NCBI RefSeq assembly: GCF_007990525.1 | Contig: NZ_AP019823.1 | Location: 868,001 to 932,000 of the forward strand | DNA length: 64,000 nt | Source: Leptotrichia hofstadii | Lineage (GTDB): Bacteria; Fusobacteriota; Fusobacteriia; Fusobacteriales; Leptotrichiaceae | Direction: 5' to 3' | Part shown: piece by piece, positions 9,447-23,078 of the stretch | Numbering within the stretch: the first letter of the stretch is position 1 | Layout: every line of letters starts with the position of its first letter | The notes under the pieces: model-generated | What the model saw: the letters and a program-made list of their open reading frames with translations, nothing else | Database searches by the model: none | What the model was told of the DNA's origin: nothing | Position numbers and translations under genes: made by a program

Positions 9447-10169
9447 ATGCCAAGTGAAAATGTGAAATGGAAACGGGAAAGCATTATAATGAAATGGACT
9501 GAAGTCGGATTTTTTCATGAAGATTTAGGCGATTGGATTTATAATGACAGGTATGAAAAAGAGATGATTCAAATTATGAAAAAAGATAAGGCTGTATTTT
9601 GGGGTAAAGAATATAATTTAAAGTGGAGAAATTATTATGGAGAAAACAAAAACGAGGAGAAATACAACTGGGAACTCGGTAATTGTGAGAATGTTTACTT
9701 ACGTAGATTTGGAAATATGATTTATACTGTTCCAAATTATCTTGAGGCACACGAGAAACATTATTTTTTCACATCTATGGGATTTACTGTGGAAAATATG
9801 AAACTGATTTACTCTAATAAGGAAATATTGGAAATGGAAATTTTGACACTAAAGGATGTTATTTATCAATGGTTATTTACGAGTCATTACAGTGATGATT
9901 TTATAAATAACTTGAAAGAATATGCAAGTGCATTAATAAATCAGATTTATTTTGTTGACGATGAAAGAATAGATGAGAATATTGACAAAAATTTCAGGAA
10001 AATAGTTAATTTGAAAGAAAATGAAGTAAAACTTGAAAGAATAGATATTTCTAAATTTGAAACGGTTGATGTATATTTAGAAAATGGAACAGTTTGGCAG
10101 GCGTTTTTACGAAAGAATGAAAAGTTATATTTAAATACGGATGTTGATGTCAGCATTCGAATATTGTAG
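9447..10169 (+). CDS. Unknown soluble protein
   Basis: A 240-aa acidic, aromatic-rich protein with no signal peptide or membrane segment and no family I can name. It contains many Trp/Tyr (KWTEVGFFHEDLGDWIYNDRY) and a C-terminal segment that alternates like beta strands (VDVYLENGTVWQAFLRKNEKLYL). Size and composition would fit an orphan immunity protein of a polymorphic-toxin system, but nothing nearby supports that. SD AGAGG is 6 nt before the ATG; a second ATG at 9490 is possible. It is followed by a terminator. Confidence 0.6.
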   Translation: MPSENVKWKRESIIMKWTEVGFFHEDLGDWIYNDRYEKEMIQIMKKDKAVFWGKEYNLKWRNYYGENKNEEKYNWELGNCENVYLRRFGNMIYTVPNYLEAHEKHYFFTSMGFTVENMKLIYSNKEILEMEILTLKDVIYQWLFTSHYSDDFINNLKEYASALINQIYFVDDERIDENIDKNFRKIVNLKENEVKLERIDISKFETVDVYLENGTVWQAFLRKNEKLYLNTDVDVSIRIL

Positions 10170-10248: not shown

Positions 10249-10407
10249 TATAATTTGATAATTTTATTAAAAAAATTAAATTTAATTCTTAAGTATCTAT
10301 CTTAAAGATTTTTGTAATTTTATTTATAAATATTATGATTAATAAATGTTTTTTCTTATTTCATTTATATGTTTTTTTAACGTAAGGGCAACAGACACCA
10401 TGCCCTT

Positions 10408-10468
10408 TTTCGCAATAACAGTTATTTTAACATATTTAACTGACTGCTACTTAAAAATAATGGCGAAA
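10408..10468 (+). repeat. 61-bp unit with TTTCGC/GCGAAA ends, copy 1
   Basis: It begins TTTCGCAATAAC and ends AATGGCGAAA. Its first 31 bp match the reverse-oriented copy at 10969-11029 at 29 positions; the middle is divergent. Confidence 0.65.
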
Positions 10469-10548
10469 CGTTCTACGAACTATCCCACTTTACGCAAAAC
10501 TTTCTTATAAAGAAAAAATAAAACTCGCTTCGTAAAAACTATGCTCAT

Positions 10549-10610
10549 TTTCGCAAACAAGAGTTATTTTAACATAAATAAGTTTTATCATTATAAAAAT
10601 TATGGCGAAA
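10549..10610 (+). repeat. 62-bp unit with TTTCGC/GCGAAA ends, copy 2
   Basis: It begins TTTCGCAAACAAGAG, shares GAGTTATTTTAACATA-like sequence with copy 1, and ends TATGGCGAAA. The left flank AAACTCGCT...GCTCATT is shared with the copy at 10773-10834. Confidence 0.65.
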
Positions 10611-10772
10611 GAAATACCTTTGTATTTAGTTATTTTTACTTTAACGAAATTTTGCTTATTTAATATTCCCAATTGCAAAAGCCTAAAATTTAAATATAAT
10701 AATTTTTATAATTTAATATAGAATGTCGTGATTTTTTTGGAATGAAAACGACTAAACACATTTATGTGTTTC

Positions 10773-10834
10773 TTTCGCCAAAAGCTTTATAACAAATGTA
10801 TTTTATAGAGTTTTTCTAATATTTATTTGCGAAA
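10773..10834 (-). repeat. 62-bp unit with TTTCGC/GCGAAA ends, copy 3
   Basis: Reverse orientation: read on the minus strand it begins TTTCGCAAATAAATATT and ends TTTTGGCGAAA. It is the most divergent copy internally, but has the same length and ends. A hairpin AAACACA-TTTA-TGTGTTT (10754-10771) abuts it. Confidence 0.55.
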
Positions 10835-10968
10835 GTGAGCGTCAGCGAGTTTCATTTTCGTAGTAATCAAGGTTTATCCAAATAACAAATGTTTAGACTA
10901 CTTTCCCAAATAAAATTTGGGAATATTTCAAAAAAATGCTTAGACAAGCCAGGGTTAGTGTGTAGCAC

Positions 10969-11029
10969 TTTCGCCATTCTCTTTAATATGCCATTATTTA
11001 AATATATTAAAATAACTTTTATTGCGAAA
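10969..11029 (-). repeat. 61-bp unit with TTTCGC/GCGAAA ends, copy 4
   Basis: Reverse orientation: read on the minus strand it begins TTTCGCAATAAAAGTTA and ends AGAATGGCGAAA. It is the mirror partner of copy 1. Confidence 0.65.
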
Positions 11030-11412
11030 TGAGGGGAAATGGCGATTGATTTCCCTTGCTTATATAAAAAGAAAAAACATGGAATTATGAAAAAATATTT
11101 ATTAATAATAAGCAGTTTTTCAAAACTTAAACAAAAATACCTTATATAGATACTTAATGATTAAATTTAACTAAAGGATATTTTATATATAATATATATA
11201 GGTTGCATAATAGAAAAAACGACTTTAATTTCATAATTTTTTTGATTTCTGCTCTTTAAATGGTAAGATGTGAAATAGTATTAATAAAAGTATTATTCTA
11301 CATCTATATAGTTTATATTTTTTATAAAATTATTTGATTAGCATTGAAAAAAACTGTAAAAAATTGTAAAATAGGTTATAATTATAAAATATGGAGAAAG
11401 TAGGGAAAATAA

Positions 11413-22908: not shown

Positions 22909-23078
22909 ATTTTTTATGCTTTAATTAATACTTGATATTTATCTTCATTTAATACTATTTCCCATTTAAATAGCAGAAATCAGAAAATTCATGGAATTAA
23001 AGATTTTTTTTATAAGGATCAAATCAATTATTCTAGAATTTTATTGCTATTTTTTTAATGGTGTTTAGTAGAAAAATA

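Follow-up and report, generated by a model that had tools for sequence, protein, structure and literature searches.

Among bacterial MITEs, which are usually viewed as inert insertion-sequence debris, RUP of Streptococcus pneumoniae is a short non-coding repeat with IS630-type TIRs and a TA target that is presumed to be mobilised in trans. BOX elements of S. pneumoniae are modular intergenic repeats with variable internal units. RUP is listed in PMC10969869, where inversion of the Correia repeat enclosed elements of Neisseria is also reported, from Elbeyioglu et al. (2017). Invertons undergo conservative site-specific inversion, as at fimS and the RecV switches of Clostridioides difficile (PMC5903667, PMC11892184).

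The window analysed here, a stretch of 64,000 nucleotides from Leptotrichia hofstadii (contig NZ_AP019823.1, positions 868,001 to 932,000), carries at 10276–11170 an inverted repeat that is far beyond chance. As the original prediction had it, the 25-bp ends (TTAAATTTAATTCTTAAGTATCTAT at 10276–10300 and the reverse complement of 11146–11170, TTAAATTTAATCATTAAGTATCTAT) are identical at 23 of 25 positions, patches further inward can be aligned toward the centre (I1, 61 nt, 82%; I2, 56 nt, 73%; I3, 47 nt, 77%; I4, 40 nt, 83%), and each arm holds two nested TTTCGC...GCGAAA units in mirror order (10408–10468 and 10548–10611, and inverted at 10774–10833 and 10970–11028). The segment is gene-free in that it contains no ORF of at least 80 aa. 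The arm-versus-arm local score is 151, compared with a mean of 27.5 (sd 3.5) and a maximum of 46 in 500 dinucleotide shuffles, and other 895-bp stretches of the window away from the element never scored above 35. Folded as single-stranded DNA the repeat reaches −140.4 kcal/mol, whereas its shuffles average −78.0 (z = −10, from 20 shuffles only). The 25-bp repeats recur at other loci and in most of the genus; that they are the ends of the element, as had been proposed, is incorrect, as conserved arms extend outward from them, on the right to about 11280.

The window's own genome (G000, 2.6 Mb) was compared with those of 12 congeners (G001–G012). BLAST found 107 matches in it, spread over more than 50 places and representing full or partial copies; all 12 of the congeners examined had matches, and those outside the genus were only marginal (E 1e-4 to 2e-6). 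Many family copies are fragments. A complete copy is 30 to 1064 bp long and is bounded at each end by a TIR (TACTAWWYCCCATTTAAAWAG) and, outside it, TA. A scripted search gave 41 TIR-to-TIR pairs, duplicate loci among them, and in most of these TA was present at both ends. Beyond the 25-bp repeats the two outer arms differ (A, about 87 bp; B, about 130 bp), with the ends TACTAAACCCCATTTAAA and TACTATTTCCCATTTAAATAG. The shortest form observed, at two loci (L302, 1492–1521, and L311), is a 30-bp palindrome of two TIRs alone, TACTATTTCCCATTTAAATAGGGTTTAGTA, flanked by TA. An IS630-family IS of 1111–1113 bp with the TIR TACTAAACCCCGTTTAAATAG and TA ends is found in congeners G002 and G005, its transposase being encoded in two frames with HTH domains followed by DDE_3, and the TIRs of the MITE are up to 19/21 identical to those of this IS. 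Given the TIR match, the TA ends and the lack of genes, the family is an IS630-type MITE, which would have been mobilised in trans by an IS630-family transposase. No autonomous partner was found near exact TIRs in G000, G008 and G010, the IS of G002 and G005 being identified through DDE_3. Genes of the IS630 type (DDE_3) are absent from the genome that the window comes from, so that transposition there may be extinct. In G001 a different IS630-family element (L353, 1138–2380; G001:C1 near 199439–200159) adjoins or lies inside a family member, and no MITE-type TIR pair was found around it. Elsewhere in the window's own genome three tandem toxin–antitoxin pairs of the RelB/YafQ type (L022, 253–2641; G000:C1:1254000–1257000) have partial element copies between them.

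Positions 10250–11280 of the window are thus assigned to an end-truncated member of this MITE family, in which the segment at 10276–11170 corresponds to the interior between inverted 12-bp cores (TTAAGTATCYAT). Its features, and those of a second family member in the window, are as follows.

10250–10288, no strand assigned: remnant of the outer A arm, left limit approximate, from an alignment with 38 A arms of other copies.
10289–10300, plus strand: putative left recombination core, TTAAGTATCTAT; in the G011 orthologue the orientation switches within these 12 bp.
10301–11145, no strand assigned: putative invertible interior, 845 bp, gene-free and quasi-palindromic; flipped between collinear flanks in G011.
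10382–10408, plus strand: left subterminal hairpin, family form GTAAGGGCAT-CARACGCC-ATGCCCTTAC, with matching stem changes across copies.
10408–10483, plus strand: optional module 1 (unit 10408–10468), a block present or absent among copies.
10548–10627, plus strand: optional module 2 (unit 10548–10611), likewise present or absent.
10754–10923, minus strand: optional segment with module 3 (unit 10774–10833, inverted), likewise present or absent.
10957–11033, minus strand: optional module 4 (unit 10970–11028, inverted), likewise present or absent.
11033–11059, minus strand: right subterminal hairpin, inverted counterpart of 10382–10408, from sequence and alignment.
11146–11157, minus strand: putative right recombination core, ATAGATACTTAA (TTAAGTATCTAT inverted), 12/12 identical to the left core and likewise a switch point.
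11158–11280, no strand assigned: outer B arm with a B-type TIR (TACTATTTC...) at its end, TA at 11279–11280, aligned with 38 other B arms.
22953–23070, no strand assigned: second family member, a MITE of 118 bp that lacks the invertible interior and consists of B and A arm ends, TIRs at 22953 (plus) and 23050 (minus), TA at the ends.

The A arm of the window copy lacks its terminal 50 bp or so, with the A-end TIR, and has the 3' region of the upstream gene in their place; the same truncation is present in the G011 orthologue. Only the B-side TIR is kept, and this is disrupted by a short insertion that lowers the TIR comparison to 10–12/21. The decayed foldback transposon named among the possibilities in the original prediction comes close, this being a MITE copy without its left TIR. 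The foldback class itself was rejected, because the element's own termini are not long inverted repeats but short IS630-type TIRs lying outside the 25-bp repeats. An empty site in a related genome, which had been put forward as a check, was found for one member of 115 bp, although the junction differs there by 4 bp, and none was obtained for an interior-bearing copy. Upstream of the element, 9447–10169 encodes a 240-aa protein with no Pfam match that is found at that position only in G000 and G011; relatives with 31–38% identity occur elsewhere in most congeners.

The orientation of the interior was followed by comparison with G011, which pepT (98% identity) marks as the nearest of the congeners. 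Between the two genomes the sequence on either side of the window element is collinear and 95–98% identical, and all that lies between the cores is reversed. At the junction the two bases just outside the core follow the flank and the first base inside it follows the interior, which places the exchange within TTAAGTATCTAT; the G011 element has an internal assembly gap but both junctions lie in continuous sequence. Several G011 copies (L177, L182, L205 and L215) contain 100-N assembly gaps, indicating that draft assemblies break at this family. When the interior was oriented relative to the outer arms in 40 complete copies from ten genomes, 25 were parallel, 14 inverted and one rearranged with two A arms. 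In each of the 39 testable copies the internal markers match the inner ends. Orientation thus changes at the core only, and no chimera produced by exchange inside the long arms was found among these 39. The copy with A-type arms on both sides, from G008 (L248, 595–1185), fits recombination of two different elements via their cores.

Ten loci could be matched across species by both flanks, and at seven of these, including the window locus, both orientations were found with the flanks unchanged. Several of the mixed-orientation loci involve genomes in one or two contigs (G001, G002, G004, G005 and G007), and the two orientations are thus not an effect of draft assembly. Same-locus interiors include a pair at 93.7–98% identity at each of five mixed loci, the usual identity between loci being 90–93%; by score, though, an orthologous interior does not always come out as the top match at these mixed loci, which is attributed to differing module content. 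That the interior has been inverted in place between related species is well supported by the sequence comparison, and the inversion may be reversible within a population. The same data bear on whether the interior could be a separate mobile element inserted independently in either orientation at a fixed MITE target. Short MITEs without an interior do exist, as this would require, but they also lack the arm parts next to the cores and are not simple empty sites, and same-locus interiors of opposite orientation are close relatives; we regard independent insertion as highly improbable.

In the interpretation that we consider probable, the window element is an end-truncated IS630-type MITE of a family spread in trans by an IS630-family transposase. 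Some members carry a quasi-palindromic, gene-free interior of 0.3–0.85 kb between two inverted 12-bp cores, and recombination inside the cores would flip this interior relative to the outer arms, each locus alternating between two states over evolution. The flip would be performed by a site-specific recombinase, probably of the tyrosine type. The two cores of a copy are identical at 12/12 positions in 21 of 37 copies and at 11/12 or more in 35 of 37, and the L-side core (TTAAG-TATCYAT-CTTAA) resembles a tyrosine-recombinase site; conservation at both sites together with this form favours a site-specific enzyme, and site-specific recombination is accordingly the cause of inversion that we would infer. 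Usually, however, no other stretch of identity between the arms is as long as the core, an identical tract of at least 12 bp being found elsewhere in only 2 of 37 copies, and enzyme-free exchange could therefore pick the same place. Such exchange, by template switching or short-homology recombination between quasi-palindromic arms that can pair over about 200 bp at about 75% identity, would be in keeping with the finding of no recombinase gene beside a core (and of no good core match near xerD). On the other hand 12 bp is short for RecA recombination, the long arms have yielded no chimeras, and conservation across copies and species is much stronger in the core than in the sequence beside it, a pattern that an inert stretch of homology would not explain. 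We think inversion without an enzyme rather unlikely.

One form of the preferred explanation, in which the enzyme is named, is inversion by XerC/XerD at Xer-like sites (TTAAG-N7-CTTAA) carried by the MITE. All 13 genomes have a XerC that keeps its C-terminal catalytic motifs. XerD (G000:C1:652295–653311, L402; orthologues L408–L412 and L419) has stayed intact in seven of them, and in the remaining six it is either truncated or catalytically degenerate: catalytic residues are altered in G001, G003 and G004, the catalytic part is mostly missing in G012 and the frames are short in G005 and G006, while the C-terminal tail KSKLKxIYNNIKLGDD is largely retained where seen. The seven genomes with intact XerD have 35, 7, 13, 43, 17, 29 and 12 core sites and the six others 10, 1, 6, 5, 0 and 0, counts that include chance matches (0–5 per strand in controls). 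In 41 of 42 pairwise comparisons the genome with intact XerD has more core sites, although the genomes are related and the correlation is confounded by kinship. XerD was also chosen from among the tyrosine recombinases retrieved after the data had been viewed, as it had visibly lost catalytic residues, and was the sole family followed up. An inverted copy is present in G004 despite its degenerate XerD. A dif-like candidate, ATAACTTCTATTATGTAAAAT, lies near the chromosome midpoint (G000:C1:1278651–1278671) and occurs also in G001 and G007; it is not clearly similar to the core, which speaks against XerC/XerD here and leaves the idea that the cores are canonical dif sites unsupported. XerD is thus a correlative candidate only, and we hold action of XerC/XerD at the cores to be possible but unlikely. 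Still more doubtful is the wider proposal that a selfish MITE recruits host XerC/XerD to give dozens of reversible loci per genome, its abundance tracking the loss or retention of active XerD across the genus.

Within the probable scheme of a MITE with a flipping interior, the interior itself varies among copies. The copies are mosaics of four blocks with one unit each, every block being wholly present or wholly absent; all four are missing from compact copies, which measure about 520 bp. The subterminal hairpins show 18 stem sequences among 132 hairpins, near-perfect stems being kept by changes on both sides. In 75 distinct hairpins 677 of 750 stem positions are Watson–Crick, a percentage biased upward by preselection at 7/10 pairs or more, and for this reason it is the variety of stems that is taken as evidence for conservation of the hairpin. 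These matching changes, along with the strong fold, would suit a functional structured RNA or a cis-regulatory switch kept by the host, the former having been raised in the original prediction. The structured RNA idea gained no direct support, as an Rfam search of the inverted repeat returned no family at the gathering threshold and mispairs in the hairpin stems (17 G–T versus 11 A–C plus C–A) are not clearly unequal and indicate no clear strand; a tRNA search also gave no match. Of 25 copies with classified neighbouring genes, 12 lie between convergent, 11 between tandem and only 2 between divergent genes, so that promoters are mostly avoided, which argues against a promoter-switch role for the interior as judged from its gene context. 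With many copies being fragments as well, a role as host-kept RNA or switch is improbable, and the element is treated as selfish unless shown otherwise.

If the preferred reading of recombination within the cores holds, this family would have a second layer of mobility, flipping at many loci genus-wide, and reversible structural variants that are broken or overlooked in short-read assemblies may be numerous in the neglected oral genus Leptotrichia. The copies would be a ready natural set of inversion sites for finding the recombinase, and the family may be linked to the puzzling decay that XerD shows in roughly half of the species. No description of a Leptotrichia repeat or invertible MITE of such kind was found in the literature covered by our search, outside which most subscription papers lie, Correia inversion being the sole precedent. 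The two-layer design, in which a modular, quasi-palindromic and invertible interior is nested between IS630-type arms that stay in place, and which is common to the genus, therefore appears to be new. The family resembles RUP and other IS630-type MITEs in being made of short non-coding repeats with IS630-type TIRs, a TA target and presumed mobilisation in trans, but differs from RUP in that some members carry a putatively invertible quasi-palindromic interior with its own recombination cores. Like BOX elements it consists of modular intergenic repeats with variable internal units, although here the modules are in mirror arrangement within the invertible interior. With invertons it shares a segment between short inverted sites, the finding of both orientations and a crossover that maps inside the site, whereas here there are dozens of unlinked, related, MITE-borne copies, mostly at gene 3' ends, with no invertase or controlled gene identified for the interior. 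Correia elements are alike in being bacterial MITEs that are dispersed and for which in-place inversion has been reported, but they have different TIRs and a different host, and promoters, which are not evident in our family, are not suggested by its gene context; in the Leptotrichia family the flip appears to involve only what lies between the internal 12-bp cores, and the outer arms keep their orientation.
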